A stretch of 64,000 bases of DNA from Fibrobacter sp. UWH6 (GTDB taxonomy: Bacteria; Fibrobacterota; Fibrobacteria; Fibrobacterales; Fibrobacteraceae): positions 62,001 through 126,000 of the forward strand of contig NZ_FRAX01000008.1 in NCBI RefSeq assembly GCF_900142465.1, given 5' to 3'. The translations under genes and the position numbers were made by a program. The notes under the pieces are model-generated. The model worked only from the letters and a program-made list of their open reading frames with translations, had not been told where the DNA came from and made no database searches. Every line of letters begins with the position of its first letter. Position 1 is the first letter of the stretch. Shown piece by piece: positions 17,595-60,876 of this stretch.

Positions 17595-17640
17595 AATCCA
17601 CATCCTATATTGTCAGAGGTTAATCCCCCCGATGCCCATA

Positions 17641-17704
17641 AAACTATATCGTCCAGGATGGAACATTCCACCCCGAAAATCAAATGCCATGGACATTTTA
17701 TCCA
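17641..17704 (-). promoter_or_regulatory. Island dyad promoter of first GH10 gene
   Basis: Dyad TGGACATTTTATCCA (17690-17704) sits inside longer arms GCCATGGA/TCCATGGC (17686-17708). -10 box TAGTTT (17641-17646), centre-to-centre 53.5 bp. No -35 box is seen. Confidence 0.75.
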
Positions 17705-19709: not shown

Positions 19710-19773
19710 AAACTACCTAGTCCTGACGTAAAAACACATTCAAAAAAAATAGGCAGCGTGGACGAATAGTCCA
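19710..19773 (-). promoter_or_regulatory. Island dyad promoter of second GH10 gene
   Basis: Dyad TGGACGAATAGTCCA (19759-19773), perfect five-base arms. -10 box TAGTTT (19710-19715), centre distance 53.5 bp. Reading the other way, no TAnnnT box occurs at this distance, so the divergent esterase is probably not driven by the same dyad. Confidence 0.75.
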
Positions 19774-24645: not shown

Positions 24646-24677
24646 ATGGACCTCTTTCCCTTTAATTTTTCTCTGTA

Positions 24678-24741
24678 AAAATATTCCTGTATGACGCATT
24701 TTACCCACGTCATTTACAAAGTCTCATGGATAGATTGTCAA
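24678..24741 (-). promoter_or_regulatory. Island dyad promoter of GH95 gene
   Basis: Dyad TGGATAGATTGTCAA (24727-24741). -10 box TATTTT (24678-24683), centre distance 53.5 bp. Confidence 0.7.
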
Positions 24742-24818: not shown

Positions 24819-28730
<3,912 letters not shown>

Positions 28731-28748
28731 TTATTACCAACCAATAAA

Positions 28749-28812
28749 AAAATACCCCTTTTAAAGAGGTAGCGAAATATCTGTTGTGAAAATCTCATTG
28801 ACAGATTGTCCA
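28749..28812 (-). promoter_or_regulatory. Island dyad promoter of GH2 gene
   Basis: Dyad TTGACAGATTGTCCA (28798-28812). -10 box TATTTT (28749-28754), centre distance 53.5 bp. Confidence 0.75.
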
Positions 28813-31056: not shown

Positions 31057-31087
31057 ACAATACCATACCCTTTTATGTTTTTTTATA

Positions 31088-31151
31088 AAAATATCTTTAG
31101 GAACCGCTAACCGACCAACAGAAAGAAGAAATCCCATTGACAAGTTGTCAA
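31088..31151 (-). promoter_or_regulatory. Island dyad promoter of first GH43 gene
   Basis: Dyad TTGACAAGTTGTCAA (31137-31151), perfect arms. -10 box TATTTT (31088-31093), centre distance 53.5 bp. It overlaps the terminator at 31131-31157. Confidence 0.78.
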
Positions 31152-31157
31152 TGGGAT
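31125..31157 (-). terminator. Terminator of the beta-helix gene, built around the dyad
   Basis: Perfect 11-base arms ATCCCATTGAC/GTCAATGGGAT (31131-31157) and a TTTCTTCTTT tail on the minus strand, 25 bases after the beta-helix gene stop. The loop-proximal part is the activator dyad of the next gene. Confidence 0.65.
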
Positions 31158-31181
31158 AACAATGTTTCATTCCTTAAAAAA

Positions 31182-33846: not shown

Positions 33847-33910
33847 AAGATATTTCTATGCAGGGCAAAAAGAATTGCCCCTACAAAACATCCCATGGAC
33901 AAGTTGTCAA
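33847..33910 (-). promoter_or_regulatory. Island dyad promoter of beta-helix gene
   Basis: Dyad TGGACAAGTTGTCAA (33896-33910). -10 box TATCTT (33847-33852), centre distance 53.5 bp. A second dyad AGGGCAA/TTGCCCCT (33862-33882) lies between them. Confidence 0.75.
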
Positions 33911-40837: not shown

Positions 40838-40852
40838 ATACTTACCAATTTC

Positions 40853-40877
40853 AAAAAATCCCGGTCAAATGCCGGGA
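40853..40877 (-). terminator. Terminator of the Cache-GGDEF gene
   Basis: TCCCGG/CCGGGA stem with a seven-base loop, T6 on the minus strand, 30 bases after the stop. Confidence 0.75.
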
Positions 40878-40906
40878 GGCTAATTTAACGATGCCAAATA
40901 TAGCTT

Positions 40907-44290: not shown

Positions 44291-44353
44291 AAGATATTTT
44301 TCACAGCGGTAAAAAACGCAAACAAAAAAAAAGTTCCTTTGACATTTTGTCAA
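44291..44353 (-). promoter_or_regulatory. Island dyad promoter of GH5 gene
   Basis: Dyad TTGACATTTTGTCAA (44339-44353), perfect arms. -10 box TATCTT (44291-44296), centre distance 52.5 bp. Confidence 0.78.
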
Positions 44354-44382: not shown

Positions 44383-46200
44383 TTAGCGAAGCAGATACAT
44401 GCCGTTGGAACGCTTCTTTGTTTCGCGGCCCAGATTTCGGCCCGTCAGAGAATAGGCGTTACGTTCGCCCTTCACAAGACCGGCAGAACGGCTCTGAGCC
44501 ACCTTCTTACCAATGCGAGCTGTACCACTACCCTCGAACTGAACATAGTCAATATCCATCCAGTCACTAGTAACAGTAAAGCGGAGAATGTGTTCGCCCT
44601 TGGTCAAGTTCACCTTCTTTTCAACCAGGTTGTAGTCATCGTAATTATCATCGCCTTCACCCTTGGGCACGGAGATTTCTTCGGTAATGTCAGTACCGTC
44701 TACAGAGAACTTGAAGCTGGAAGTTTCGTTGGCAGAAGCCACATAGGCGCCCAAAGTGTATTCACCTGTTTCGGCAACATCAACTGTATATTCGAGCCAA
44801 TCACCCTTCTGGTTGTAACCAATTACAATGCGGCCGTCAGTCTTTTCATAAATGTCTACGGGAGTTCCCTTACGGTAATCGCTGTTGCCCTGATTTTCGG
44901 AATCGCCATCGCTATAGGAAACGTTACCCTGGCCGATACCGCTAACGTCAAAATCTTCCATTTCGATCTTGCCGGGGATTGCAAAGGCCTTGCCCTTGAA
45001 CGGTTCGCGGGGAACGGGTTCAAGAATCAAGCGGAGCAATACAGAACCGTGGGCAGGAACTTCAACAGAGACATGGTTCAGCTTGCCCAAATCCTTCTTC
45101 TGCCAGGCATCGCGAACTTCCACTTCACCAGTTACACCGATATCTGCGAAATCGCATTCGATAGTCTGGGTAGAGGTATTGTCATTCAGGAGAGCTACAG
45201 CGAGGTCACCATTGCGCAAGGGCTTGGTCCAGACCTGCTTACCATCTACATTAGAAATTCGATGTCCCTGCACGCCCAGGGAATCCTGGTTAATGGCAAT
45301 CATATCCTTGTTCAGGTAAAGCTCCTTCACCTGGTCGCTCATCTTGCGGACATCGGAACTGATCATGATGGGAGCCGCCATAATGGACCACATGGTCATC
45401 TGGGACTTCTGTTCTTCATAAGTCAGGTTTCTGTTATCCACTTCGAGCATGTCCGGGTCATTCCAGTTACCCGGCTTTGCAATCTTCCAGTACTTGTCAT
45501 TGGCATCGATAATTTCGTAAACGCCGCGGTACCAGGAGGTAGATCTCCATTCGGGGCCAATATCGAAAGTGGTACGCCACAGATGGGCGATTTTCGGCAT
45601 CCAGTCCTTATATTCCCAGGCGCAAATGCTGAACACGATGTCGCGGCCGGAATTGCGGAGAGCCTTGGACATACGGGTGTAATCTTCTTCCTGGTTGGAG
45701 CCGGGAGCCGGGTCGCAGTTATCGTACTTCAGGTAGTCAACGCCCCATTCGGCAAACTTCTTGGCATCCTGTTCTTCGTGCATGTAGGAGCCGTTTTCGC
45801 TTACCCAGTTGCTGTTGTAATGATGGCAGGTACGTTTACCGCGGTCGCCATACACGCCGAACTTCAGGCCCTTCTTATGAATGTAATCGGCCAGAGCCTT
45901 CATGCCACTGGGGAAAGTCTTGGGATGGTTCTGGAGGTCGCCATTGGCGTCGCGCTTGGTGTCCATCCAGTTGTCGTCCAGATTCAGGTAGATATAGCCA
46001 GCATCGCGAAGGCCAGAAGAAACCATGGCGTCGGCCACTTCCTTGATCTGGGTTTCGTTGATGTTTTCGTGGAATACGTTCCAGCTGTTCCAGCCCAGAG
46101 GGGGCGTAAGCACCAGACTATCTGGGTGGGCATTTGCAGTAACGGCAGCTACAGCCATAGCGGCTGCAGCAAGACCCATCTGTTTCTTCAAACCGAACAT
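44383..46200 (-). CDS. GH27 alpha-galactosidase with CBM6 and short C-terminal module
   Basis: A 605-residue secreted alpha-galactosidase, removing alpha-linked galactose (or beta-L-arabinopyranose) from hemicellulose side chains. Signal peptide about 1-24 (ANAHP). The family hallmark TPPLGWNSWNVF opens the barrel. YLNLDDNWM binds substrate, VDYLKYDNCD holds the nucleophile Asp, LWRTTFDI the acid/base Asp, and GNWNDPDMLEV is conserved. A beta-sandwich follows to about residue 400. CBM6 spans about 410-560 (IPGKIEMEDFDVSG). The C-terminal module is shorter than in its neighbours (about 40 residues, ending NGMYLLR). Confidence 0.95.
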   Translation of the reverse strand: MFGLKKQMGLAAAAMAVAAVTANAHPDSLVLTPPLGWNSWNVFHENINETQIKEVADAMVSSGLRDAGYIYLNLDDNWMDTKRDANGDLQNHPKTFPSGMKALADYIHKKGLKFGVYGDRGKRTCHHYNSNWVSENGSYMHEEQDAKKFAEWGVDYLKYDNCDPAPGSNQEEDYTRMSKALRNSGRDIVFSICAWEYKDWMPKIAHLWRTTFDIGPEWRSTSWYRGVYEIIDANDKYWKIAKPGNWNDPDMLEVDNRNLTYEEQKSQMTMWSIMAAPIMISSDVRKMSDQVKELYLNKDMIAINQDSLGVQGHRISNVDGKQVWTKPLRNGDLAVALLNDNTSTQTIECDFADIGVTGEVEVRDAWQKKDLGKLNHVSVEVPAHGSVLLRLILEPVPREPFKGKAFAIPGKIEMEDFDVSGIGQGNVSYSDGDSENQGNSDYRKGTPVDIYEKTDGRIVIGYNQKGDWLEYTVDVAETGEYTLGAYVASANETSSFKFSVDGTDITEEISVPKGEGDDNYDDYNLVEKKVNLTKGEHILRFTVTSDWMDIDYVQFEGSGTARIGKKVAQSRSAGLVKGERNAYSLTGRNLGRETKKRSNGMYLLR

Positions 46201-46227: not shown

Positions 46228-46291
46228 AAACTATCCACTTCTGTCACTGAAAACACCAACCTACCAGAATATTTCATGGACATTTTGTCTA
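46228..46291 (-). promoter_or_regulatory. Island dyad promoter of GH27 gene
   Basis: Dyad TGGACATTTTGTCTA (46277-46291). -10 box TAGTTT (46228-46233), centre distance 53.5 bp. The stop codon of the upstream CE1 gene is only four bases away, and no terminator separates them. Confidence 0.75.
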
Positions 46292-46295
46292 GATA

Positions 46296-47816
46296 TTATC
46301 GACCAACCTGAATCGATTTCACAGAACTTCCTGAACGAACCATATACACGCCAGATTTTTTTACCAGCGAAAGTACATTCGATTTCATTTCATTGAAATT
46401 CAAGGCATCAATCTTTCCAAGGTAGGCACCAGATAAACCGTAGACTTCATAAGTTCGTAAAACATTACGATCCAAATTCAACGCATGCACAGCGGTTTCG
46501 CAGCAGGGAACCATGGGCACATCATTTTCATCAACCTTTTCAATGGAAACATTATCCAGCATAAGGGTTCCCGTAGATGTCGCCGCATTAAAGCTTAGGC
46601 GGGCATTGGTGTCCGTCGCAGCGGTCATCTGGAAATAGAATGAAAGGGGCTGCATGGAAGTACTAACGTCAAAATTCTGGACCGCGGTCAAATAGCTATC
46701 CCAAGGATCTTCGTGCTGTTCCACGTTCACTTCAAGAACACGATCTGCATCGGCACCGGCCTCAAAACTGACCTTGTACCATTCACCCTGTTCAAGATGA
46801 AGATTGTGCTGGATCAGCTGCACGGTATAAGGCTGCGACCCGACAGCGGAAATATCAAGAACATACTTGCCATCCTTCACAGAACCAACGGACTTACCAT
46901 CGCCATGATTCTGGAGGGTCCATGCATTCGCAGTAGAATCGAAACCACCATTATAAATGCTGTCGCGGTTGGTGGGTTCAACAAAAGGAGGTACGGCAGG
47001 CGTTTCCGCTACCGCTCCGTCGAGAGAGAAGCGCTTTACAAAATTCCAGATTTCGTCAGAGGTATTGACGCTGGCCAAATCCATGGAATACCAATGGCCC
47101 TTATCCTTAATGGAAATCAGACGGATATCGCTATTTTCCTTACAGCCGCTCCATTTTTCCATGGAGGCTGCAGAAGTGGTTTTGCCAACTGGATATTGGG
47201 AAATCTTTTCGGAGTTGGAGGAACAGCCTTCGTATTCCACCCAACGCTTCAAATAGGAAACAGCGCTGTTGTAGTTCACCGTAGGATCCGTCGTGCCGTG
47301 AGTATGCAGAATCGGCATCATGCGCTTGCTGGCGGGAGCGGGATTTCCAACCGGGTAGCCGGACACGGGAGCAATTGCAGCAATCTGGTCGCTCATCTTG
47401 TTAGCAGCGTGATAGCTCATCATGCCGCCCATGGAGAAGCCTGAAACATATACGCGTTTCTTATCAATTCCGTATTTCGTATACATTTCATTGATGATTG
47501 CTTTCAGGAAGTTCACATCCTTGTCGCCAGAAATATCCCAGGACTTATTTTCGCCATTAGGGAACACCACCACAAATCGGGCGGTATCCGCGATTTCTTC
47601 CCACTTAGCCGCATCATGCTGGTAGGGGGCATCCTGATTCATGCCATGCATCTGAATAATCAGGGGGCGATCTTTTTCGATATTAGCGGGTGCGTAAACC
47701 AGCATATTACGGTTCGCACCATTCACATTGATATTCTGAGAAGGAATCCCAAAGGAACTTCCCATAAATACAGTCAACGCAGCAAATGCTGCGACAAAGA
47801 ACTTTTTGCCAGACAT
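46296..47816 (-). CDS. CE1 esterase with CBM4/9-like module and C-terminal module
   Basis: A 506-residue secreted esterase, probably feruloyl or acetyl-xylan esterase. Start ATG 47816 has GAGG six bases upstream; the earlier in-frame ATG lies directly on the GAGG. Signal peptide about 1-22. The alpha/beta-hydrolase spans about 25-275, with the oxyanion loop MHGMNQDAP, the nucleophile Ser in SGFSMGG, the Asp in HGTTDPTVNY and the His in KDKGHWYSMD. The second domain (about 290-440, NGGFDSTANAWTLQ) is a jelly-roll like CBM4/CBM9 rather than CBM6, which is unusual in this island. The C-terminal module YEVYGLSGAYLGKIDAL closes the protein. Confidence 0.9.
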   Translation of the reverse strand: MSGKKFFVAAFAALTVFMGSSFGIPSQNINVNGANRNMLVYAPANIEKDRPLIIQMHGMNQDAPYQHDAAKWEEIADTARFVVVFPNGENKSWDISGDKDVNFLKAIINEMYTKYGIDKKRVYVSGFSMGGMMSYHAANKMSDQIAAIAPVSGYPVGNPAPASKRMMPILHTHGTTDPTVNYNSAVSYLKRWVEYEGCSSNSEKISQYPVGKTTSAASMEKWSGCKENSDIRLISIKDKGHWYSMDLASVNTSDEIWNFVKRFSLDGAVAETPAVPPFVEPTNRDSIYNGGFDSTANAWTLQNHGDGKSVGSVKDGKYVLDISAVGSQPYTVQLIQHNLHLEQGEWYKVSFEAGADADRVLEVNVEQHEDPWDSYLTAVQNFDVSTSMQPLSFYFQMTAATDTNARLSFNAATSTGTLMLDNVSIEKVDENDVPMVPCCETAVHALNLDRNVLRTYEVYGLSGAYLGKIDALNFNEMKSNVLSLVKKSGVYMVRSGSSVKSIQVGR

Positions 47817-47867
47817 CCACATCCTCATTTTTAAGGTTAGCGGACACCACTCCGCGAACCCACCTTA

Positions 47868-47931
47868 AAACTATATGGGTTGTAAGCAAAAAGAAAACAT
47901 CAAACCATAACAACTATGGATAAAAAGTCCA
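47868..47931 (-). promoter_or_regulatory. Island dyad promoter of CE1 gene
   Basis: Dyad TGGATAAAAAGTCCA (47917-47931). -10 box TAGTTT (47868-47873), centre distance 53.5 bp. Confidence 0.73.
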
Positions 47932-48021: not shown

Positions 48022-50388
48022 TTACTTGGTCACGGAAATCTTGTGAACCAGGCCACCACGGACTGGCTTTACGATATACATGCCGCTCTGCTTTACAAAA
48101 TCGCGGGTAACGTTCACGATATCGGCGCCATTGCTGTTCACGATTCCCAGCAAGTTTCCGTTCAGGTTAAACACGCGGTAGTTCTGCTGACCGCCAACCA
48201 CCATGCGAATGTCCCTGATGGAGGTGGTGCCAATAGGAGCGGGATCCGTTGCGTCCTTACCTTCGGCAAAGTTAAAGTAGTCAATGTCGAACCAGTCTGC
48301 GGTGGCGGTAAAGCGCAGGATATGTTCACCGGCAGGCAGGACCACATTGGCATTCACCTTGTTGTAATCATCAAAGTTCTGTTCTTCGCTATCACCGTCT
48401 TTCTTTGCAGCAGGAACAGCGATGTCTTCAGTAAGATCCTTACCATCCAGAGAAAGCTTGAAGCTGGAGCCACCATCGGAAGCGACTGCGGCAAACAAAG
48501 TATAGTCACCAGCCTTTGTAACATTGATGGTATATTCCAGCCATTCATCCTTCTGGATATAGCCAACCACAATGCGGTCGCCAGATTTCTTGTACAGATC
48601 TACGCCAGTATCCTTACGGTAATCGGAGCATTCGCTAACCTTGTCACCAGTGCAGGCACGATTTTCGGAATCCTTGTCGCTGTAAGACGGACCGCCCTTG
48701 CCCTTACCCGGATCGTCAAAGTCTTCAGCTTCGATCTGGCCAGGAAGTGCCCACGGAGTCTGGGTTGCATTGTGTGCCGTCTGGGGAATAGGTTCTGCGC
48801 CGGCACCATCCAGGTAGATTTCATCATTTGCGTCTACACCAATCTTGAACCAGTCAAAGTCAACAGATCCGCCAGCGGTTTTTGTTGCCCAGTTGAACAA
48901 GCCAAAACGATTACCCACGAACATGTGCAAATCGAAGCTCAAGCTTACATTAGTACCGATCTTCTTCCAAGAACTGCCATCTTCGCTGTAGTAGAAGGAG
49001 GCTGTGCCCTTATCGATAGGAATGTCAAAATCGACGCGGAGGTAAACCTTGGAGCCAGAAAGATTTTCAGAAGCCTCGCGCTTTTCACCATCCTTGGTGC
49101 CGCTGTACATGACAACCTTATAGCTGCCACTTTCCTTCGTAATGGCCACCATGCCCTTGTTGTCCTGCCAAGCAGCAAGACCGGCAACATCGCCATCATT
49201 CATATTAGAGCCATCCACCAAGGTACGGCCAACGCACTTGGGGCCAAAGGTACGCTGAGTCAGCATATTCTTGACGCTGGTAATGCGGGCATCGGTACGG
49301 CCAGTGGTAATGCGGAGCTTGCCATCAGCCAGTTTCCACTTGGAGTTATCCGGATTGTGGTTCCACTGCCATTCCAGCGGAAGTTCGTCGCCATCAAAGT
49401 CATCGGAAGTGACCATGCCGTAACCCGGTTCCACTTCGCTAGGCAAATCCAAAGTTGCGGGAGCCTTCTTGGAACCGCCTTCAGGTTCCGGCCAACCATC
49501 CTTCCACACCGTGGGAACCAGGTGAGAAATACGGCCAATAGGACCAGAATCGCGGAACAGGAGCGCATACCACTTGCCATCGGGAGTATCAAAAATACCG
49601 CCCTGGGCTACGCCATTATCCTGCAAGAAGATTCGGCCGGTAAAGCCATCCAAAAGGTTCTTGGAACGATAAACAATTTCAGTACGGCAAGCGCCTGCGG
49701 GCCAAGAAATAGTAAACAGGTAGTATTCACCGTTCACCTTTTCCATGTGAGAGCCTTCCTGCTGCACATAGTAATCGCGATCGCCCTTGCCGGTAATCTT
49801 GTTGACACTAACGCCACCAACCTTGCCGCTCTTGCCGCCAGCCTTTACGCCAGACGCATCGTCGTTCAGCTGCACATAGCTAATCTGATCGCCAGAACCG
49901 TAGAAAACCCAGGCCGTGCCGTCATCATCGAAGAACAGAGAGGGATCGTGATAGAAGGGCAGCTGGACTTCGCTCCAGGGGCCGCCTTCGATATCCTTGG
50001 TCTTGTAAAGGTGAGTCTTGTTGGTGGTATAAGACGGAGTCAGGACGTAATAGTAACCGTCCTTCTCTCGATAGCGGATGCTAGAAGCCCAGGAGCCCTT
50101 ACCATAGGCATCCTTACCGCCGTTCAAATTCATGTTGTCGTTATTGGTCAGGGTTTCGTACACATAACCAATAGTGCGCCACTGAGCCAAATCGGTGCTC
50201 TTGAAAATGGGAATGCCCGGAGCGTAATGCATGGTGGTCGTCACCATGTAGTAGTTGCCCTCGACGCGTACAATGGAAGGGTCCGGAGAATCGGACCAGA
50301 TCACCGGATTATTAACAGTGACGGCAAAGGCGCCAACTGCAGAACCGAGCAAAGCTGCTCCGGCAAAAAACTTCTTTAACAATCCCAT
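48022..50388 (-). CDS. GH43 enzyme with beta-sandwich, CBM6 and C-terminal module
   Basis: A 788-residue secreted family 43 enzyme resembling the beta-xylosidase/arabinofuranosidase group with an accessory C-terminal beta-sandwich. Start ATG 50388 with GAGGAG seven bases upstream. Signal peptide about 1-21 (AVGAFA). The propeller spans about 24-310, with the base Asp in WSDSPDPSIV, the modulating Asp in FYHDPSLFFDDDG and the acid Glu near QEGSHMEKVN. The beta-sandwich spans about 330-530 (WQWNHNPDNSKW is typical of GH43-linked domains). CBM6 spans about 549-705 (LPGQIEAEDFDDPG). The C-terminal module starts at YRVFNLNGNLLGIV. Its upstream region carries the tandem repeats. Confidence 0.92.
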   Translation of the reverse strand: MGLLKKFFAGAALLGSAVGAFAVTVNNPVIWSDSPDPSIVRVEGNYYMVTTTMHYAPGIPIFKSTDLAQWRTIGYVYETLTNNDNMNLNGGKDAYGKGSWASSIRYREKDGYYYVLTPSYTTNKTHLYKTKDIEGGPWSEVQLPFYHDPSLFFDDDGTAWVFYGSGDQISYVQLNDDASGVKAGGKSGKVGGVSVNKITGKGDRDYYVQQEGSHMEKVNGEYYLFTISWPAGACRTEIVYRSKNLLDGFTGRIFLQDNGVAQGGIFDTPDGKWYALLFRDSGPIGRISHLVPTVWKDGWPEPEGGSKKAPATLDLPSEVEPGYGMVTSDDFDGDELPLEWQWNHNPDNSKWKLADGKLRITTGRTDARITSVKNMLTQRTFGPKCVGRTLVDGSNMNDGDVAGLAAWQDNKGMVAITKESGSYKVVMYSGTKDGEKREASENLSGSKVYLRVDFDIPIDKGTASFYYSEDGSSWKKIGTNVSLSFDLHMFVGNRFGLFNWATKTAGGSVDFDWFKIGVDANDEIYLDGAGAEPIPQTAHNATQTPWALPGQIEAEDFDDPGKGKGGPSYSDKDSENRACTGDKVSECSDYRKDTGVDLYKKSGDRIVVGYIQKDEWLEYTINVTKAGDYTLFAAVASDGGSSFKLSLDGKDLTEDIAVPAAKKDGDSEEQNFDDYNKVNANVVLPAGEHILRFTATADWFDIDYFNFAEGKDATDPAPIGTTSIRDIRMVVGGQQNYRVFNLNGNLLGIVNSNGADIVNVTRDFVKQSGMYIVKPVRGGLVHKISVTK

Positions 50389-50438
50389 ATCAATCTCCTC
50401 AGCAGGCCACACCAACAACCTGCGGTTTTCATGACTAT

Positions 50439-50502
50439 AAATTACCTCTGTCCAAGGACAAAAAACATGCCTAGACAAAAGCTTTTATTGACATTTTATC
50501 AA
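50439..50502 (-). promoter_or_regulatory. Island dyad promoter of second GH43 gene
   Basis: Dyad TTGACATTTTATCAA (50488-50502). -10 box TAATTT (50439-50444), centre distance 53.5 bp. The right part of the dyad lies inside the first tandem repeat unit. Confidence 0.72.
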
Positions 50503-51309: not shown

Positions 51310-52908
51310 TTATTTTTCAACTCGCATAATGAAGTTCTTTTCGCCGGGGACACTGACCAGGTAAACGCCCTGCTTCTTGGTAGCAGACTTGCTTACGCGA
51401 TTGCCCTGCATATCGAAGTACTGGGCCTTGGACATATCCACCTGCTGATTGGACTTCACACCCAAACGGATTGCCGTGGGATCTTCTTCAGAACCGCCCA
51501 CCTTGACAAATTCCACATAGTCGATGTCAATCCAGTCGTTGGTGATTTCCAGTTTCAGCTCATGTTCACCAGCGGTGAGAGTTGCGGTGCCGCCCTTCAC
51601 AGTCGTGTAGCTTTCTTCGCTAAAGCCCAAGCCCTCGTTGACCATTTCAGTACCGATCTGCTTTTCATCCATGTAGAGGACAAAGCTGCCAGTGCTGTTT
51701 TCGCCAGCGATTCTTGCAGAAATTTCGTATTCACCATCAGCAGCCACGTTCACGGTATACTTGAGCCATTCGCCCTTCTGGCAATGACCGATAGCCATAC
51801 CCTTATCCGGCTGGTAAATATCCACGTCATCCTTACGGAGCTTGCCACCTTCGTTGCCCTTGCTCAAGTCATAGTAAGCTTTTCCGGCGCCGCCCTTGTT
51901 GTAGTTTTCGGCCTGAAGCTTACCCGGAATTTCAATAGGATCTGCATAGGGGCCATATTCTTCAGGGGGTTCATCAGCCACTGTAGACTTGCTGGGGTCA
52001 ACCAGATCCACGGCGGGTGCGTTGGGGTCAATAGTCTTGTCGATCAGCTTCAGCATTTCGGAGCAGTAACGCTTGCCCAGTTCAATGACACCTTCGCGTC
52101 CGAAATGGTAAACATCCTTGCCGTTACCCTTCAAGCCCTTGGAAGACGCCAAACCAAACTTCTTGAAGTTGTTCTTCAGCAGAGCAATGCCGCCGTTCTT
52201 GCTGGAACAGCAGTTGTTACCTTCCTGGAGCAATTCACCAGCCACGAAAGGAACTTCGTTTTCGTCCAGATCGAGAGCGTCGATAATGTCCTTGTAGGTC
52301 TTGTAAACAGTCTTACGCCAGTTATCATCAGTACCGTCAGATTCACCCTGATGGAAGATGAACCCCTTGATGACACCCACTTCCTTGGCCTTCTTGGCAA
52401 GTTCCAGAATACGTCCCGGAGGATTGTTGTCGTAATCCTTGGGCCAGCCCCAAGACTTAATGTCCTTACCATCGCCGTTAAAATAAGCCTGATACTGATC
52501 CTTGTCAAATGCGCGGATACTGACAGCACCGATAGCCACAGGAATAATGCCCACGGTCACACCCGGCAGGGAGTCCACCATGGCGCGGCCAAAGTAGTCA
52601 GCGGGGGAAAGCTGTTCAAACGCGTGGAACATGGGGGGAATTGCCGGATACCATTCTCCGGTCTTGATAGACTGGGTTGTGGAACCAGTACGGCTGCTGG
52701 CATTTGCCGTGTGAGAAGCCAGCATAATAAAGTTCTTGGGTTCCTGAGCCTGATCCACAGACGGAACGATTTCACCGTTACCCGACATATTGGACTGGCC
52801 ATAGGCAATATAAATATGGAAATTCGGATTGGGTGCAGCAAAAGCACAACCGGCAACAGCCAATACACCCAGCGCCGCCTTCATAAATTTAGACTTAATT
52901 GTATTCAT
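51310..52908 (-). CDS. CE6 acetyl-xylan esterase with CBM6 and C-terminal module
   Basis: A 532-residue secreted SGNH-type esterase of family CE6, which removes acetyl groups from xylan. Start ATG 52908 has GAGGAG upstream. Signal peptide about 1-24 (GVLAVAGCAFA). The nucleophile Ser is in IAYGQSNMSG, the Gln/Glu block in FHQGESDGTDDNW, and the catalytic His in DVYHFGREGVIELGKRY. CBM6 spans about 329-475 (IPGKLQAENYNKGG). The C-terminal module is about 480-532 (AQYFDMQGNRVSKSATKKQGVYLV). A 27-codon ORF follows on the same transcript. Confidence 0.94.
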   Translation of the reverse strand: MNTIKSKFMKAALGVLAVAGCAFAAPNPNFHIYIAYGQSNMSGNGEIVPSVDQAQEPKNFIMLASHTANASSRTGSTTQSIKTGEWYPAIPPMFHAFEQLSPADYFGRAMVDSLPGVTVGIIPVAIGAVSIRAFDKDQYQAYFNGDGKDIKSWGWPKDYDNNPPGRILELAKKAKEVGVIKGFIFHQGESDGTDDNWRKTVYKTYKDIIDALDLDENEVPFVAGELLQEGNNCCSSKNGGIALLKNNFKKFGLASSKGLKGNGKDVYHFGREGVIELGKRYCSEMLKLIDKTIDPNAPAVDLVDPSKSTVADEPPEEYGPYADPIEIPGKLQAENYNKGGAGKAYYDLSKGNEGGKLRKDDVDIYQPDKGMAIGHCQKGEWLKYTVNVAADGEYEISARIAGENSTGSFVLYMDEKQIGTEMVNEGLGFSEESYTTVKGGTATLTAGEHELKLEITNDWIDIDYVEFVKVGGSEEDPTAIRLGVKSNQQVDMSKAQYFDMQGNRVSKSATKKQGVYLVSVPGEKNFIMRVEK

Positions 52909-52937
52909 AACACTCCTCGTACAATTTATCACACTAT

Positions 52938-53000
52938 AAACTATTCTTTAATGGAATAAAAAGCAAAATTTCTACACGTAAAATATGGATTATATGTCCA
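52938..53000 (-). promoter_or_regulatory. Island dyad promoter of CE6 gene
   Basis: Dyad TGGATTATATGTCCA (52986-53000). -10 box TAGTTT (52938-52943), centre distance 52.5 bp. Confidence 0.73.
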
Positions 53001-53093: not shown

Positions 53094-55232
53094 TTACTTA
53101 GTTACGTTCACTACAGCAGAACCAGAGACGGACTTCACCAGATAGGAACCCTTTGCCTTTACAAGGTCAGCAGTCTTGTTCTGCAGATCCACAGATTCAG
53201 ACTTGAAGGAACCCATCAAATTACCGTTCATATCGAACACGGAGTAGTTCTGTTCGCCAGCCACGTCAAAACGGACCTTGACAATACTAGTCGTATCTTC
53301 AGGATCTTCGGGATCCACAACCGGTTCCGGGTCAGTTGCGTCCTTGCCTTCGACGAAGGTGAAGTAGTCTACATCCAGCCAGTCGGAGGTCACCTGGAAG
53401 CGAAGGATATGTTCACCTTCGGTAAGGGTTACATTTCTCTGGATCTTGTCAAAGGAGTCAAAATTGCCTTCGCTAGAAGTAGTTGCCGGAGCGACGATGG
53501 TATCGGTAATAGCCTTGCCATCCATCAAGAGCTGGAAACTTGCAGTACCGTTGTTGGAAGCCACATAGGCGAACATGGTGTAATCACCGGACTTGGCCAC
53601 CTTCACGGTGTATTCAAGCCATTCACCATTGCGGTTGTAGCCGACCACGTTGCCAAAGGACTTCTTGTAGATATCGACGCCGGTGTCTTTGCGGTAATCA
53701 GAACATTCAGAAACATCGGTATCCGAGCAAGAATGGTTTTCGGAATCGGTATCATAGAAAGTCTTGTTGGCGTTACCCGTACCCGGGATATCAAAGTCTT
53801 CGGCCTGGATCTTGCCCGGGATGGCGAGGGCTTCACCCTTGAACGGTTCACGGGGAGTAGGAGGAGCAAAGGCGGCAGCACCAACCAGGGTCACAATGCA
53901 GTCCTTGTTGGAGGAACCGGATTCCATCTTGATGGTCACGGAACCGTTAACCACATCATATTCATCCAGGTATTCCGCATTCTTGTTTTCGCTGGTCATG
54001 TAGGCGCGAACGGTCTTGACATCAGCACCCTTTATGTTGACCGTAACAGTCTTTGCGTTCCTGGCATCACGATTAAGGAGAACCACGATGACGCTATCGC
54101 CATTGGCGCTCTTGTAAGCGGAAGCATGAACGTCAGTTTCGGGCTTCAGGGTAGCACCCACACGAACTGCACCCGGACGGATGAATCGGGCAAACTGGCT
54201 CATGATGTAGCCGCGCTTGGAAACCTTGCCCACTTCGTTGGAAGGAATGGAAAGCTTATTGCTAAAATCCGTTTCCATGATCAGGCCATAGCAACGACGG
54301 ATGTACCACCAGGTGTACTGATTGAAGTTACCAATAGCCAAGGCACGATGAATATCGTAGGCCACGTCCATAGCGCGGACGGTGTCCTTCTTGTTCTGAT
54401 TTGCCTGGTCACCGGTATTCATAATCTTACGCCAATAGTTGCCGCTGCCCTGGCTTTCGGTATAGTGTTCCGTCATCCAGCGTTCCACATTTTTCTGGTC
54501 AGCGAGAGAGTACTGGAACCAGGAATCTGCGGTATAGGCTTCACTAGCGTAGAAGTGGGCGCCAAGAATGTCCCAGTTCTTCAGAACATTATCATCCTTC
54601 AGAACCTTGTCGTACATGCCCTTGGCATAGGCAAAGGATTCCGTAGAAATCACCTTGGTGCCATGCTTACGCATCTTGGCGGCGTAATCTCTGGTAAAGT
54701 TGTAAATTTCGTCAGCAGACCAGCAGGCCCATTCGCCGCACCAGTCCGGTTCGTTGCTGATGGAAAGGGCGTACAGGGGAACACCCTGGTTGATCATGTA
54801 TTCTGCAAAGCTATTCAGATGGTCAACATACTTCTGGTAGTTGCTGGAGGCGATGTGCTGACCGGCACCTGCATAGTTGGAAGTCCAGGGGGTTGCATAG
54901 AGAATGAAGTCATTGCCGGCATACTTCTTGGCGGACTTGGCGGCGGCAACATCCTTGTTAAAACTGTTAGAATTTCCGTAAACCGGAATACGGAGGGTAT
55001 TCAAGCCAATTTGGCCATCACCGGTACCAAAGGCAAGCTTAGCATCGGCATCGGAGAGACCTTTACCGCCCTGCCATTCATTGTGGACCATGCCACCAAA
55101 ACCACGAATTACCTGATATTCAGTATTTGCATCGACAGTAACAGTCGAAGCCAAGGCGCTACCGGCAAAAAAGCCCAGGATGCCAAACAAAGACGCAATC
55201 TTGCCTACGCAAGAGCAATTTCTATTCCACAT
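53094..55232 (-). CDS. GH30 glucuronoxylanase-like enzyme with CBM6 and C-terminal module
   Basis: A 712-residue secreted family 30 enzyme that cuts xylan, in the best-known relatives at positions set by glucuronic acid branches. Start ATG 55232 with GGAG eight bases upstream. Signal peptide about 1-28 (GFFAGSALA). The barrel opens YQVIRGFGGMVHNEW; LSISNEPDW holds the acid/base Glu and WMTEHYTES the nucleophile Glu. The family's side beta-domain follows to about 450. CBM6 spans about 477-635 (IPGKIQAEDFDIPG). The C-terminal module starts at YSVFDMNGNLMGSF. Whether it needs glucuronate is not clear from the motifs I can see. Confidence 0.93.
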   Translation of the reverse strand: MWNRNCSCVGKIASLFGILGFFAGSALASTVTVDANTEYQVIRGFGGMVHNEWQGGKGLSDADAKLAFGTGDGQIGLNTLRIPVYGNSNSFNKDVAAAKSAKKYAGNDFILYATPWTSNYAGAGQHIASSNYQKYVDHLNSFAEYMINQGVPLYALSISNEPDWCGEWACWSADEIYNFTRDYAAKMRKHGTKVISTESFAYAKGMYDKVLKDDNVLKNWDILGAHFYASEAYTADSWFQYSLADQKNVERWMTEHYTESQGSGNYWRKIMNTGDQANQNKKDTVRAMDVAYDIHRALAIGNFNQYTWWYIRRCYGLIMETDFSNKLSIPSNEVGKVSKRGYIMSQFARFIRPGAVRVGATLKPETDVHASAYKSANGDSVIVVLLNRDARNAKTVTVNIKGADVKTVRAYMTSENKNAEYLDEYDVVNGSVTIKMESGSSNKDCIVTLVGAAAFAPPTPREPFKGEALAIPGKIQAEDFDIPGTGNANKTFYDTDSENHSCSDTDVSECSDYRKDTGVDIYKKSFGNVVGYNRNGEWLEYTVKVAKSGDYTMFAYVASNNGTASFQLLMDGKAITDTIVAPATTSSEGNFDSFDKIQRNVTLTEGEHILRFQVTSDWLDVDYFTFVEGKDATDPEPVVDPEDPEDTTSIVKVRFDVAGEQNYSVFDMNGNLMGSFKSESVDLQNKTADLVKAKGSYLVKSVSGSAVVNVTK

Positions 55233-55281
55233 ATCCCATACTCCATGTATGAAGAGCGACACCACTCGCCCTATGCAACTT

Positions 55282-55345
55282 AAACTATTCCATTTCGGAG
55301 CATATATCCACTATGGACACCCTCTTTCCATGGACAAATTGTCCA
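55282..55345 (-). promoter_or_regulatory. Island dyad promoter of GH30 gene
   Basis: Dyad TGGACAAATTGTCCA (55331-55345), perfect arms extended by A/T to six bases. -10 box TAGTTT (55282-55287), centre distance 53.5 bp. Confidence 0.8.
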
Positions 55346-55442: not shown

Positions 55443-57710
55443 TTAGCGAACCACACGGATCATGGACTTTTCACCATTGGTACCACGGATCATGAAGATG
55501 CCCTGGACACCCTTGGCAGAATTTTTCCACTGGGCCGTTGCAGAAGACAGGTCCTTGGCATCGATGGTAGCCATCTTCTGACCGTTTACATCGAACACCT
55601 GGAAGCTTCTGGAAGAGGTCACGTTCATACGGATAGACTTAATGGAAGTAGGATCAAGTTCCACGTCATCCGGTGCATCGGCGCCAGCAACGAAGTTGAT
55701 GAAGTCGATGTCGAACCAGTCTGCAGTGGCGGTAAAGCGCAGGATGTGCTCGCCCTTGGTCAGGTTCACATTGGCGCTAACCTTGCTGTAATCGTCAAAG
55801 TTCTGGGCAGATTCTTCGCTCTTCTTGTTGGCGGGAACAGTGATATCTTCTGTAATATCCTTGCCATCGATAGAAAGCTTGAAGCTGGAACCACCATCAG
55901 AAGCAACAGCGGCATACATGGTATAAGTGCCAGTTTCAGCAACGTTCACCGTATATTCAAGCCATTCGCCTTCGTTGATGTAACCCACAATCAGCTTACC
56001 GCCAGCCTTCTTATAGATATCTACGCCAGTACCGTCACGGTAGTCGGAGCATTCCGCTTCCTTGCCGGCATCGGTGCAGGAGTGGTTTTCGGAATCCTTG
56101 TCATAGTAGGACTTCAAATCGCTACCGCGGCCAACACCGGGAACGTCAAAGTCCTCCATCTGGATCACACCGGGGATAGCCCAGGCGGTGCCGCCATAAG
56201 GTGACTGCGGCGTGGGTTCAGTAGTTCCGCTACCTTCGAAGCCCCAGGCCTTGATAGCCATGGTAGAATCCTTGGCACCCTTGAACACCAGGAACAGCTG
56301 ATCCACAATACCGGAGAGGCCTTCAACTTCGCACTTGTTTTCGGCATAGGTCGTCTTGGAACCAGTATTCTTCAGTTCGCAAGTACCAGCCAAGGTGCCA
56401 GTTGCAGAACCCTTGCGGATTTCAATGGTGTTCCCATCGGCAACACTACCCGCTTCAACGATAAAGCCAGTTGCTGCAGTACCGAAGTCTACACCAGAAA
56501 CGCGAATCCAGGATTCCTTGGTAGAAAGAGGCAACAGAAGGCTACCAGATACCTTACCCGGAGCCCACAGGGAACGGCTACGGACGCCTCTCTGCTTGGA
56601 GCTAGTCAGAGCCGGATACCAATCGTACGGGTCAAAGTTTTCAATCTGTTCCGGACCTTCGTTAGTGCAAACCACCTGCTTAATGGTACCATCGGCGTTA
56701 TAGAACATTTCGTCTACAGAAACGCTACGGTGGTAACCTTCGTTAGGCTTAGGCATGCCATCATCGGCAGGGATAATTTCCAGACCATCGTGGCCCTTGG
56801 CAATACGGCGATCATGGTAAACCACATAGGAATGGCCCTTGAATTCGGCGATACCGTGGTGGTTGTTATTGCCGTTAATGCTCTTGCCATTCATGCTGGG
56901 ATCGCCAAGGATGGTACCCTTCCAGGTAAAGGGGCCCGTGGGGCTATCACCAATACCATAGTCAATAGTGGGAGCACCCTGCTGCCAGCCAGTACTGTAG
57001 GAGAAGTAATACTTACCTTCATGCTTATGGATGTAGGAAGCTTCCAGCATCTTGCGGGTAGACAGGCCGTTCACCTTCACGTGAGAGCCGGTACCCACCG
57101 GAGCATCCTTGGCATCATTCAGCTTTACGACGTCAAAGTTATCTGTGTTCGGACGACTAGTGCTTTCGCCACCACCCCATGTCACATAGGTAGTACCATC
57201 GTCATCGATGAAGATACCCGGGTCAAAGCACCAGGAAACGCCATCACAGTCAATATGGCCCTTTCCCCAACCGGCAACCAGCTTGTCCTTGCCACCGCCC
57301 ACAGCGTTGCTCCACGGACCGGCGATGCTATCAGCCTTGATGTAGCCAATACCGCCGCCACCGCCATCGGGGAACACAATATAAAGTTTACCAGTCTTGG
57401 GATCGGAAGCAATACCGGAAGCCCAAATATCACCGATGCCGTTGATTTGACGGGCATCATAGATAATACCGAAATCAGTCCAGTTCTGCATGTCCTTACT
57501 GCGGAAGCCGTAAAGAGCATAAATCTTATAACCATCGGAATTATAGGGAGCCGGGTCATCGGAATCGGTGATGATGTAGAAATATTCATCATCGGCGGCG
57601 GCACCCGGGTCAGCCAGATAATGGTAAGTTGAAATCGGATTGTAGGCCAGGCCGAAGGTTGCAAGACCTGCGGCAAAGGTGGCGCCAACCACTTTCTTTA
57701 AAAGCTTCAT
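55443..57710 (-). CDS. GH43 enzyme with two CBM6-like modules and C-terminal module
   Basis: A 755-residue secreted family 43 enzyme. Start ATG 57710 with GGGAG upstream. Signal peptide about 1-21 (GLATFGLA). The propeller spans about 22-350, with the base Asp in YHYLADPGAAA, the modulating Asp in CFDPGIFIDDDG and the acid Glu in KMLEASYIHKHEGKYY. A divergent CBM6-like module covers about 375-500 (PGKVSGSLLLPLSTKESW). A typical CBM6 follows at about 517-680 (IPGVIQMEDFDVPG), then the C-terminal module (RSFQVFDVNGQKMATI). This is the layout of the first GH43 gene product. Arabinofuranosidase or xylosidase activity is likely. Confidence 0.92.
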   Translation of the reverse strand: MKLLKKVVGATFAAGLATFGLAYNPISTYHYLADPGAAADDEYFYIITDSDDPAPYNSDGYKIYALYGFRSKDMQNWTDFGIIYDARQINGIGDIWASGIASDPKTGKLYIVFPDGGGGGIGYIKADSIAGPWSNAVGGGKDKLVAGWGKGHIDCDGVSWCFDPGIFIDDDGTTYVTWGGGESTSRPNTDNFDVVKLNDAKDAPVGTGSHVKVNGLSTRKMLEASYIHKHEGKYYFSYSTGWQQGAPTIDYGIGDSPTGPFTWKGTILGDPSMNGKSINGNNNHHGIAEFKGHSYVVYHDRRIAKGHDGLEIIPADDGMPKPNEGYHRSVSVDEMFYNADGTIKQVVCTNEGPEQIENFDPYDWYPALTSSKQRGVRSRSLWAPGKVSGSLLLPLSTKESWIRVSGVDFGTAATGFIVEAGSVADGNTIEIRKGSATGTLAGTCELKNTGSKTTYAENKCEVEGLSGIVDQLFLVFKGAKDSTMAIKAWGFEGSGTTEPTPQSPYGGTAWAIPGVIQMEDFDVPGVGRGSDLKSYYDKDSENHSCTDAGKEAECSDYRDGTGVDIYKKAGGKLIVGYINEGEWLEYTVNVAETGTYTMYAAVASDGGSSFKLSIDGKDITEDITVPANKKSEESAQNFDDYSKVSANVNLTKGEHILRFTATADWFDIDFINFVAGADAPDDVELDPTSIKSIRMNVTSSRSFQVFDVNGQKMATIDAKDLSSATAQWKNSAKGVQGIFMIRGTNGEKSMIRVVR

Positions 57711-57900: not shown

Positions 57901-59238
57901 TTAGGGCGTTAAACCCTTTACGCCATAGATTTCCACGTCATCGACCCAGAGTTCGTATTCGCCTTCGTCGCCACGGCGGGCGGCAAAGATACCAAGACTG
58001 TTCACATGATCCTTGACAGCGTCCCAACCGACGTTTCCGCCAATCTTGCTTTCGCTTGCAGGATCCAGATCGTCTACGGTAATCACAATACGAGTCCACC
58101 TGTCGGTAATTCTCTTATGGCCCCAAGCCTTGCCGGTCTCGTAACCAAGCACGCTATCTGCGGTGCTGTTGTCTACGTGAACATCGAAGGAGAAGCTGAC
58201 CCACATGGAATCGTTATCCGGATTTTCGCCGCGAGCCCAGAACACAACGGAATCAAGTTCCGAGAAGTCATGGAATTCGGCGAAGTTGTGACCCATCATG
58301 GACCACACCAAGTTGGAATCCTTGTGACAGCTCATATGAGCTACCAGACCGAACTTGGCTTCTTCCACAGCATCCAGCTCGATAGTCGCATTCCTGGATA
58401 CAGAAGTGTACCAGCGGTAGGTGCCATCGTCGAAATCATCCAGCAGCACATAGGGGTAAACCTCTACGGTATCTTCGTCTACGGAATCCTTCGCCGTTGT
58501 ATCGGCAGGAAGCGTATCGGGAGTTTCAACCTGAGGACGGGTTCCGATAACCACGCCATCCTTGGACTTTTCAGACACCACAGTCACGGGAACAAAGCCG
58601 ATGGTCTGGAAGTTGTCGTAAACTTCAAGCTGGCCGTTGACATTCACGTATTCGCTGGTGTAATAGATAAAGCCCACAGCGTCAAAGGATCCTTCGGGCA
58701 GGGACTTGAATTCGAAGTTGCCCAGAGAATCCGTCTGCACAACGTAATCAAGACCGCGGATACCCACGTAGGTAGACTTGTTTCCCTCGGGAATCAATAC
58801 CTGACCGCTCATAGAAGTAGTCTTCTTGAGAACCATGGACAAGGTATCGCAAACGCTATCCTTAACGACAATACGGTCCAAAGCCTTATCGGAGCTACCA
58901 CGAGCTTCGACAAGATACTCGCCGGCCTTCATCCTGGGCAGGCTCAACCGGCCCTGGTCGTCGGTCTCCTTATTCCAGATACCGGCGGCAGAATCAGACT
59001 CTTCAAGACTATTGACATAACGAGAGCTGGAACCAGCCAAGAAATGACTCGGTCGCACCATCACCTTAGTGCGAGCTGCAGGAGAGCCGTCAGCCTGGCG
59101 TACAGTCATGGCAACAGAGTTCTCCGTTTCAAACGAAGAACCGGCAGTGTCACCCACGCTGTCGCTAGAACATGCGACAAAAAGCGCACTGAATGCGCTT
59201 GCTGCAGCTAAAGTTAAATGCCACACCCACTTTTTCAT
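57901..59238 (-). CDS. Lipoprotein with carboxypeptidase-regulatory-like and CBM11-like domains
   Basis: A 445-residue predicted lipoprotein. The N-terminal signal ends in a lipobox-like LFVAC at about residue 23, followed by SSDS. A regulatory-like beta-domain (about 42-140: VRQADGSPAARTKVMV...GRLSLPRMKAGEYLVEARG) and a second such unit (about 145-235) come next. An acidic linker follows, then a CBM11/CIA30-like jelly roll (about 265-440: LLDDFDDGTYRWYTS, RWTRIVITVDDLDP, ELWVDDVEIYG). The start ATG overlaps the stop of the TIGR02147 regulator (ATGA), so the two are translationally coupled. I infer a carbohydrate-binding sensor or surface lipoprotein working with the regulator. No enzymatic motif is seen. 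Confidence 0.85.
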   Translation of the reverse strand: MKKWVWHLTLAAASAFSALFVACSSDSVGDTAGSSFETENSVAMTVRQADGSPAARTKVMVRPSHFLAGSSSRYVNSLEESDSAAGIWNKETDDQGRLSLPRMKAGEYLVEARGSSDKALDRIVVKDSVCDTLSMVLKKTTSMSGQVLIPEGNKSTYVGIRGLDYVVQTDSLGNFEFKSLPEGSFDAVGFIYYTSEYVNVNGQLEVYDNFQTIGFVPVTVVSEKSKDGVVIGTRPQVETPDTLPADTTAKDSVDEDTVEVYPYVLLDDFDDGTYRWYTSVSRNATIELDAVEEAKFGLVAHMSCHKDSNLVWSMMGHNFAEFHDFSELDSVVFWARGENPDNDSMWVSFSFDVHVDNSTADSVLGYETGKAWGHKRITDRWTRIVITVDDLDPASESKIGGNVGWDAVKDHVNSLGIFAARRGDEGEYELWVDDVEIYGVKGLTP

Positions 59239-60098
59239 TTTGTCTCCCTTTTTACGCCCTCCGCTTCATCTACGGTGCCAACCCCGCCCTTTCGGGCAAC
59301 CGGGTAGAACGCCATCGAGAGTTGCATTACCCGATCCGGATTCTTGGCGCCATCCACGCGCTTCTGAACCAGGCGACGGAATTCACGGAGCATGTCCCCC
59401 AGATCCTCAAAGCAGGACTGGTCGACAGACAATGTAAGTGTAGAAATATTTCTTTCGTCCACAGGAACGTTATCAAGCGCATCGCTGGCTAAAGACAGCA
59501 CCTGACGCTGGAATTTGCGAACTGCGGCCTTCTTTTCGGGTCCGCCAGCGGTCAAATGGGCGTCTGTAAGCGCAAGTTTACCGGAAGCCATCTTCTTTAC
59601 CAGACCCACTTCCAGCAGAGTATCGATTGCCTCTTGCACCTGGGCCTCGGAAATGGGCGGGCAGATGTCATGGGCGATCTGCTTGATGTTCACCACGCCA
59701 CCATTCAGTTCCAGGTAGGCACGGACGGCGGGAATCCACCAGTTCTCAAGCAGTTTAAGTTCGGCGGCCTGCAGGCTATGACGGTTCACGTCCCTGAGAG
59801 ACAGGGCCTTGGCCATCAGTTCTTCGCGCTGACCCTTGTCCTTGGTAACGGAGGCAGAGAACAGCAGGTCGAAGTACTCGGCTTCGCGGCCAGACAGTTC
59901 AAGCATTTCCTTCGCGGCAGGCAGCGCACGGGCAGGCAGGTGTTGCTTCTTCTGAAGCACCCTGTACAGGTAGCTGGAATCGAGGCCCAGCTTGTCACCC
60001 ATCATGCGATAGCTGTAGAAAGGCATCTCTGCCTTTTTACGATCATAGAAGGCTTTCAGGAATTCGCGGTAGTCCGCTATGTCAGAAAAAGTAACCAT
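59235..60098 (-). CDS. TIGR02147 (DUF4423) family regulator
   Basis: A 287-residue protein of the TIGR02147/DUF4423 family, expanded in Fibrobacter and of unknown function. Start ATG 60098 fits the family; the open frame runs on upstream across the promoter. The N-terminus (YREFLKAFYDRKKAEMPFYSYRMMGDKLGLDSSYLYRVL) looks like a helix-turn-helix domain of the Cro/XRE kind. The middle has a second winged-helix-like segment (VVNIKQIAHDICPPISEAQVQEAIDTLLEVGLVKK), and LTLSVDQSCFEDLGDMLREF forms the C-terminal part. No membrane segment. The gene has the same dyad promoter as 13 enzyme genes and is co-transcribed with a lipoprotein gene, so it is the best candidate for the island activator. That role is inference. 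Confidence 0.85.
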   Translation of the reverse strand: MVTFSDIADYREFLKAFYDRKKAEMPFYSYRMMGDKLGLDSSYLYRVLQKKQHLPARALPAAKEMLELSGREAEYFDLLFSASVTKDKGQREELMAKALSLRDVNRHSLQAAELKLLENWWIPAVRAYLELNGGVVNIKQIAHDICPPISEAQVQEAIDTLLEVGLVKKMASGKLALTDAHLTAGGPEKKAAVRKFQRQVLSLASDALDNVPVDERNISTLTLSVDQSCFEDLGDMLREFRRLVQKRVDGAKNPDRVMQLSMAFYPVARKGGVGTVDEAEGVKRETK

Positions 60099-60125
60099 AT
60101 TAATTATCCAAATCTTTACACTAAT

Positions 60126-60189
60126 AAGATAGACTTTGGACGTTTTAAAAAATAGATATTTCGCGAATTTGCCGTGGACGTTTTGTCCA
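60126..60189 (-). promoter_or_regulatory. Island dyad promoter of the regulator gene
   Basis: Dyad TGGACGTTTTGTCCA (60175-60189), perfect arms. -10 box TATCTT (60126-60131), centre distance 53.5 bp. An extra half-site TGGACGTTTT, identical to the first ten bases of the dyad, lies at 60137-60146, just upstream of the -10 box. Confidence 0.8.
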
Positions 60190-60876
60190 AGCCAATCGTG
60201 ATTTTTGTCACAAAAATATAAGTTTTGATACAAAATTGGCGTTTTCAGGCGAAAAACCGCAAATTTTTAAAAGAAAGAATGGGATTCCTCATGGATAAAA
60301 ACGCCTCAAAGGGGGCCGGAACATCTCCATTCAAGAGCAAACTGTGAGCGCAGTCAACAAATCAGCAATCGGATGCCATTTTACACAGCCCGCTGGCGGT
60401 GGAAATTATTCCAAAGGCAGTGAAAGGGGCGGCCTGCGACGATCTTTTGCGAAAAAGGCGGTGGATTCGGCGAAAAACGGAGGTTTACACTGCCTTTTCG
60501 CGAATTTGCTTGCGAAAGCGGCGGGTTAAACGATGAAAGTGGCGGTCTAAACAGAGGAAATGGCGGGTTGGACAGCCAAATTGAGGCTTACGCAGAGGCG
60601 AAAGGGGCGGCCTGCGACGATCTTTTGCAAAAAAGGCAGTGGATTTGGTGAAAAAAAGGTGGTTTACACTGCCTTTTTCGCGTGATTGCCTGCGACAAAG
60701 ACCGCGTTTCAAATAATAGTTAGCAGTTCTTTGCCCGACGTACATTATATATAAAAGGGATTTTCTATTTCGCGTTATAGTTTTTATCAATAACAAATCA
60801 TTTATTTTCAGTTTTCGTAATTGGCAACGCCTATAGAGTAGTGGATTAGCGGCACCTTTTTTCTAAAATTCCAATT
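60190..60876. other. Divergent intergenic region between regulator and metH
   Basis: About 690 bases without a supported gene. It contains the two-copy repeat (60422-60700) and, after 60720, an AT-rich stretch likely to hold the metH promoter (TATATA-rich near 60746). I see no recognisable cobalamin or SAM riboswitch. Confidence 0.45.
60422..60700. repeat. Two diverged direct repeats of about 105 bases
   Basis: GAAAGGGGCGGCCTGCGACG starts at 60422 and again at 60600. The copies stay alignable through TTTACACTGCCTTTT and TTGCNTGCGA. Short GGCGG-rich pieces lie between them. Probably a non-coding intergenic repeat. Confidence 0.75.

Follow-up and report, generated by a model that had tools for sequence, protein, structure and literature searches.

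A TIGR02147-family protein as the probable self-activating regulator of a Fibrobacter hemicellulase island

The window, by which we mean the whole 64-kb stretch analysed here from the 3.92-Mb genome of Fibrobacter sp. UWH6, contains a hemicellulase island that spans 15.7 to 60.1 kb. The island encodes two GH10 and three GH43 enzymes together with GH95, GH2, GH141, GH5, GH27 and GH30 enzymes, as well as two esterases, one of SASA/CE6 type and one with a CBM4_9 domain; CBM6 is present in nearly all of the island enzymes. Its right end is formed by the gene of a TIGR02147 protein, the putative regulator, and a lipoprotein gene (Table 1), and the coordinates of the two agree with the ATGA overlap described in an earlier note on this DNA. 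Close named relatives are Fibrobacter metagenome-assembled genomes and F. intestinalis ATCC 43854.

Table 1 Genes, candidate promoter elements and dyads of the island, in window positions.
Feature	Position	Strand	Basis or downstream unit
TIGR02147 (DUF4423) regulator, 287 aa	59235..60098	-	HMM matches and predicted structure
Lipoprotein, 445 aa	57901..59238	-	lipobox, CBM11-like fold
Putative operator dyad TGGACGTTTTGTCCA of regulator-lipoprotein operon	60175..60189	.	motif, conservation
Predicted -10 element TATCTTAT of regulator operon	60124..60131	-	first T 51 nt from dyad centre
CRP-type box TGTGACAAAAATCACG upstream of regulator dyad	60197..60212	-	motif match, kept in many orthologs
Dyad TTGACATTTTGTCAA	57811..57825	.	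GH43+CBM6 gene 55443-57710 (-); -10 at 51
Dyad	55331..55345	.	GH30+CBM6 gene 53094-55265 (-); -10 at 51
Dyad	52986..53000	.	CE6-type (SASA)+CBM6 gene 51310-52932 (-); -10 at 50
Dyad	50488..50502	.	GH43+CBM6 gene 48022-50478 (-), true start likely ~50388; -10 at 51
Dyad	47917..47931	.	esterase+CBM4_9 gene 46296-47828 (-); -10 at 51
Dyad	46277..46291	.	GH27+CBM6 gene 44383-46200 (-); -10 at 51
Dyad	44339..44353	.	GH5+CBM6 gene 42519-44216 (-); -10 at 50
Dyad	33896..33910	.	GH141+CBM6 gene 31182-33797 (-); -10 at 51
Dyad	31137..31151	.	GH43+CBM6 gene 28897-31170 (-), true start likely ~31056; -10 at 51
Dyad	28798..28812	.	GH2+CBM6 gene 24819-28718 (-); -10 at 51
Dyad	24727..24741	.	GH95+CBM6 gene 21646-24708 (-), true start likely ~24645; -10 at 51
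Dyad	19759..19773	.	GH10+CBM6 gene 17838-19682 (-); -10 at 51
Dyad	17690..17704	.	GH10+CBM6 gene 15666-17603 (-); -10 at 51

The regulator is, as previously noted, a member of the TIGR02147 family, both by the TIGR02147 HMM (194.8 bits against a curated cut-off of 50, profile positions 8-271 of 272) and by that of Pfam DUF4423 (PF14394; 96.8 bits against a gathering cut-off of 30, residues 107-267). The family has no assigned function. Our literature search found no mention of TIGR02147, and in the literature searched DUF4423 receives only a passing mention, for Bd3700 of Bdellovibrio (PMC12546842). A sequence search of the PDB returned no relative of the regulator, and Foldseek with its AlphaFold model returned nothing at E < 0.001. 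The model is mostly helical (pLDDT 79), with a predicted layout of an XRE/HigA-like helix-turn-helix (HTH; residues ~7-90), a winged-helix-like domain (residues 106-185) and C-terminal helices. Residues 8-90 align with DNA-bound HigA (PDB code 9chn; VIA Z 8.2, rmsd 2.6, 75 residues) and residues 106-185 resemble winged-helix domains, each a moderate structural match. The HTH-like N-terminus proposed earlier is consistent with the HigA match in predicted fold; at the level of sequence families it falls short, with Pfam HTH_31 scoring 15 bits against a cut-off of 27.

The dyad has the consensus TKGAY-N5-RTCMA, and we scanned the island with TKGACN5GTCMA, allowing at most one mismatch. A dyad matching at no fewer than 9 of 10 positions precedes all 14 minus-strand units tested, namely 13 enzyme units and the regulator operon, just as the earlier note had the island enzymes sharing the dyad of the regulator operon; the latter is described there as the best match. 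The first T of a -10-like TAnnTT element lies 51 nt from the dyad centre in 12 units and 50 nt from it in 2, while the distance from start codon to dyad is variable (76 to 122 nt). Perfect 10/10 matches to the scanning pattern number 8 in the 44.7-kb island and 6 in 421.6 kb elsewhere in the genome (Fisher p = 1.3e-5). Genome-wide counts of the dyad alone exceed the control only modestly, and a composite that includes the -10 (dyad, 43 nt, TANNTTW) was therefore needed: It has 15 matches in the genome, 11 of them within the island, and 1 in the reversed control. The observation of a shared dyad is thereby confirmed, and the dyad can be read as a promoter element of the island units.

Sites outside the island include those before a CE6-type esterase with CBM6 and before a PETase-like esterase, the latter with two tandem dyads (G000:C9:138368-138449; L116, L190) upstream of a PETase-like/esterase lipoprotein gene. 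Inside the island, a GGDEF/dCache gene and its neighbouring unknown gene (39974-42478) have no dyad of their own. A dyad at 34146 before a VWA-domain gene was left uncounted, and the one at 19759 was rejected as a promoter of the divergent plus-strand gene (19895 on), there being no -10 at the right spacing in either case; exact dyads elsewhere in the genome that are intragenic and have GC-rich spacers look like chance.

Across 99 thinned sites the operator widens to YYATKGAYAAWTTRTCMATRR, and no -35 hexamer consensus was found among them. Placing the first T of the -10 at -12, the dyad centre would lie at about -62 or -63 from the transcription start in all 14 units, as in class I activation. 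A classic class I CRP site is centred at -61.5, and the likeness of the island promoters to CRP class I promoters is one of position, with the start sites predicted; the dyad and the protein are different ones, and a true CRP-type box occurs separately at the regulator promoter. The half-sites of the dyad are 10 bp apart, a spacing that suits the XRE/HigA fold. XRE/HigA-like proteins are often repressors, which counts against reading the regulator as an activator, and the resemblance of its HTH to HigA/XRE antitoxin repressors could mean that it binds the dyad yet represses, with sugar releasing it in the manner of LacI/XRE-like logic. Repressors that regulate their own genes usually have sites overlapping the promoter core or the start, however, whereas the dyad is held at its fixed distance upstream of the -10 in promoters that lack a -35 consensus, and we consider repression very unlikely. 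The regulator also departs from XRE/HigA-type proteins in adding the winged-helix-like domain and DUF4423, and the position of the site suggests activation rather than autorepression.

The dyad is conserved well beyond this genome. It precedes 67/67 scored orthologs of the regulator (identity of at least 52%) from several genera, 66 times as a full match to TKGAYN5RTCMA and once at 9/10 (L251); in nearly all of them a -10 follows at 49-52 nt, and little else is conserved in these upstream regions. For the deepest orthologs (L257, L258 and L261) the automatic TAnnTT search gave no element. By inspection, a 52%-identity relative (G002) has TATACT 51 nt from the dyad before its regulator gene; another gene there, apparently for a GH10 xylanase, is preceded by TATCTT, again at 51 nt. 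Among sister paralogs of 44-49% identity such a dyad was found in 1/7: L267 carries TGGACAAAGAGTCCA 75 nt upstream of its start codon, and is perhaps cross-regulated by the island regulator.

We counted the composite in 111 related genomes. Its mean per genome is 13.4 in the 76 same-genus genomes with an ortholog of the regulator (the reversed control gives about 0.1 per Fibrobacter genome with the regulator), 3.1 in 15 genomes of other genera with an ortholog, and 0.19 where the ortholog is missing (16 genomes), the last mean leaving out the incomplete genomes G016, G023, G069 and G107, all without a recognised ortholog. With all 20 genomes that lack a recognised ortholog included, the difference has p = 2e-10. 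Near orthologs in named genomes there are 160 composite sites, with 0 in the reversed control; 152 of the 160 stand directly before an ORF, and 151 of these 152 ORFs are homologous to island enzymes or to the regulator. Counting against the pairing of regulator and dyad, the incomplete G023 and G069 have sites while the ortholog is absent from the assembly. Because the enzymes are also missing in the genomes without the regulator, presence and absence cannot single out this regulator, and we dropped them as proof of the identity of the binder: another regulator could be lost alongside the enzymes.

The joint absence of all parts in genomes without the system would suit a rival model in which the TIGR02147 operon and the enzymes are alike controlled through the dyad by a different transcription factor, either a CRP/FNR protein or a metal-dependent response regulator of the kind put forward for F. 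succinogenes S85; the S85 genome paper suggested two response regulators within the cluster Fisuc_1762-1804 (PMC3079729). The UWH6 genome has five cNMP-domain matches, of which L069 alone is a DNA-binding protein resembling CRP; its helix reads TTRETVSRI. The E. coli CRP helix has RETVGR and reads TGTGA. A separate TGTGA-N6-TCACA-type box is conserved next to the dyad in many orthologs, and in the window no CRP-type match other than the one beside the island regulator's dyad has one mismatch or fewer. The dyad, for its part, fits neither the TGTGA-N6-TCACA nor the TTGAT-N4-ATCAA form of CRP/FNR operators. A CRP/FNR protein, which the earlier note had named as the binder that would overturn its model, is thus an unlikely one, since the genome encodes a single such DNA-binding protein, whose helix is of CRP type and whose putative box lies beside the dyad. 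The GGDEF protein of the island has no DNA-binding domain in Pfam, and the type of dyad tracks the TIGR02147 ortholog group and recognition helix, as described below; control by any such different factor seems to us highly improbable.

TIGR02147 proteins are numerous in Fibrobacter, as had been pointed out, with 23 matches in this genome, and their conserved upstream footprints vary by paralog group. GTTGTN6ACAAC (the L009 group) and GTTGTN8ACAAC (the L003 group) have the same -10 spacing as the island dyad and occur far above the reversed control across the genomes of the family. Each precedes its own regulator gene; the L009 type is also found before genes for a rhamnogalacturonan lyase (PL11) and pectate lyases and before a divergent lipoprotein gene, and the L003 type before GH11+CBM6, CotH and Fib_succ_major genes. 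At least two further TIGR02147 members, those of the L009 and L003 types, look like regulators of other substrates. The idea of gene-specific dyads shared with enzyme genes across the family fits these two types and not a large fast-evolving clade, which has no plain palindrome; for this reason, and as a palindromicity metaprofile of paralog promoters (any TAnnTTW anchor) lacks a clear peak near 51, we rejected the notion that every TIGR02147 gene has a dyad. That clade (L006, L007, L013 and relatives) has upstream TTTTGTATCAT motifs, sometimes as inverted repeats. In most TIGR02147 paralogs other than the island regulator (L001-L022, L128-L176), the start codon follows the beginning of a -10-like element by only 12-13 nt, so that their mRNAs are predicted to be leaderless; the leader of the island regulator is longer.

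We compared operators and recognition helices across three genomes, at 71 loci. Five paralog groups and no others have TTG/TGG-type dyads whose centres lie 49-51.5 nt from the -10, at 15/15 loci, and these five are the groups with Arg-Val inside the predicted recognition helix. The script had scored seven Arg-Val groups (Fisher p = 2.5e-5), in two of which the letters lie, by eye, outside the helix position. As the five groups need two changes on the tree, the covariation represents at most two independent events.

Together, the spacing, the conservation, the covariation with the helix and the separate CRP box make it very probable that the dyad is bound by the regulator, which thereby activates both the island and its own expression. 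That the regulator acts in this way had been the simplest model of the earlier note, and comparison of sequences across genomes argues strongly for it; we give a probability of roughly 0.82 to the reading that the TIGR02147 protein is devoted to the island as its transcription activator, acts via the dyad and also activates its own operon. In the mechanism we propose, a regulator dimer would bind YYATKGAYAAWTTRTCMATRR through its N-terminal XRE-like HTH, with half-sites one helical turn apart. From a class I activator position, ~62-63 bp upstream of the transcription start, it would recruit RNA polymerase to promoters with a TAnnTTT -10 and no recognisable -35. It would thereby switch on the 13 island enzyme units, together with its own operon, lipoprotein included, and a small number of esterase genes outside the island. 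A CRP-type protein at the adjacent box may couple the regulator operon to the carbon or energy state, and sugar might be sensed by the DUF4423 part, the lipoprotein, or both.

The lipoprotein has a signal peptide with the lipobox FVAC and a lipid-bearing Cys23, invariant in 30 orthologs, and is modelled as two Ig/TTR-like domains followed by a C-terminal CBM11-like jelly roll. A conserved tract, AGSSxETENSVA, has its most conserved part (ETEN..A) 14 residues past the lipid cysteine. The CBM11-like domain claimed earlier stands at the level of fold (6r3m, E 4.6e-8, TM 0.72 by target length; 1v0a, E 6.6e-8) and not at that of sequence family: a Pfam search up to E = 1 gave no CBM11 match, and we therefore call the domain CBM11-like rather than CBM11. 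The suggestion that the lipoprotein binds sugar is likewise borne out in part, by the modelled fold and not by Pfam.

Almost all TIGR02147 genes of the genome are followed directly by a lipoprotein gene, so that the pairing looked for beyond this locus extends across the family in this genome. The C-terminal domains of these partners differ, and include CBM4_9, laminin-G lectin, pectate lyase and Fib_succ_major domains. A motif after the lipid cysteine, C-x(2-11)-[VTS]-A-[GN], is found in 16/17 partners as against 4/30 other candidate lipoproteins (p = 5e-8); one of the four non-partner carriers is encoded near the paralog gene L016 and may be the partner of L016. The partner lipoproteins, for example that at 57901-59238 and L094-L114, share this short motif in forms such as CSxxxxVAGG, and it is rare in other candidate lipoproteins.

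Compatibly with activation by the regulator, the lipoprotein could be just another target, a surface adhesin outside signalling. Its cotranscription by overlap and its CBM11-like fold would suit an adhesin, as would the lack of a visible path by which an outer-membrane signal could reach a cytoplasmic protein, whereas a lipoprotein gene of its own beside nearly every TIGR02147 gene, with a post-cysteine motif largely confined to partners, is a one-to-one pairing that exceeds the needs of an adhesin; we give the adhesin even odds. A broader and rather doubtful proposal sees in each TIGR02147 protein and its partner lipoprotein a sugar-sensing pair that links envelope and nucleoid. Such pairs would be a new class of system, with more than 20 copies per Fibrobacter genome; each copy would have its own operator, at the same class I distance, and would govern a polysaccharide regulon of its own, and the post-cysteine motif of the lipoprotein would set the activity of the cytoplasmic activator.

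Bacteroides PUL regulators, such as HTCS and ECF sigma/anti-sigma pairs with SusCD, are also substrate-specific and many per genome, and occur with surface sugar-binding lipoproteins and enzymes. The Fibrobacter arrangement resembles them in having many regulators per genome, each with lipoproteins and enzymes, and differs in that the lipoprotein gene is the immediate partner of a cytoplasmic one-component protein; neither a membrane-spanning sensor nor an anti-sigma factor or SusC was seen in the regulator operon. XynR/XylR of the Caldicellulosiruptorales, from another phylum, appear alike in pathway-level control of xylan genes (PMC12285236). RNA-seq of S85 defined coexpression clusters, one enriched in CBM6, CE6, GH10 and GH30 and another in CBM6, GH27, GH43, GH95 and GH141, whose expression was higher at slow growth (PMC6204037). 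These are the families of the island, and at the level of families the likeness speaks in favour of the activation proposed here.

The S85 genome paper left the regulation of cellulases as an unanswered question (PMC3079729), and the activator proposed here bears on the question of regulation raised there: the finding provides a specific candidate activator of hemicellulase genes, with a putative operator of 15-21 bp and a list of targets. An orphan family with more than 20 members per genome would thereby gain its first plausible, testable role.
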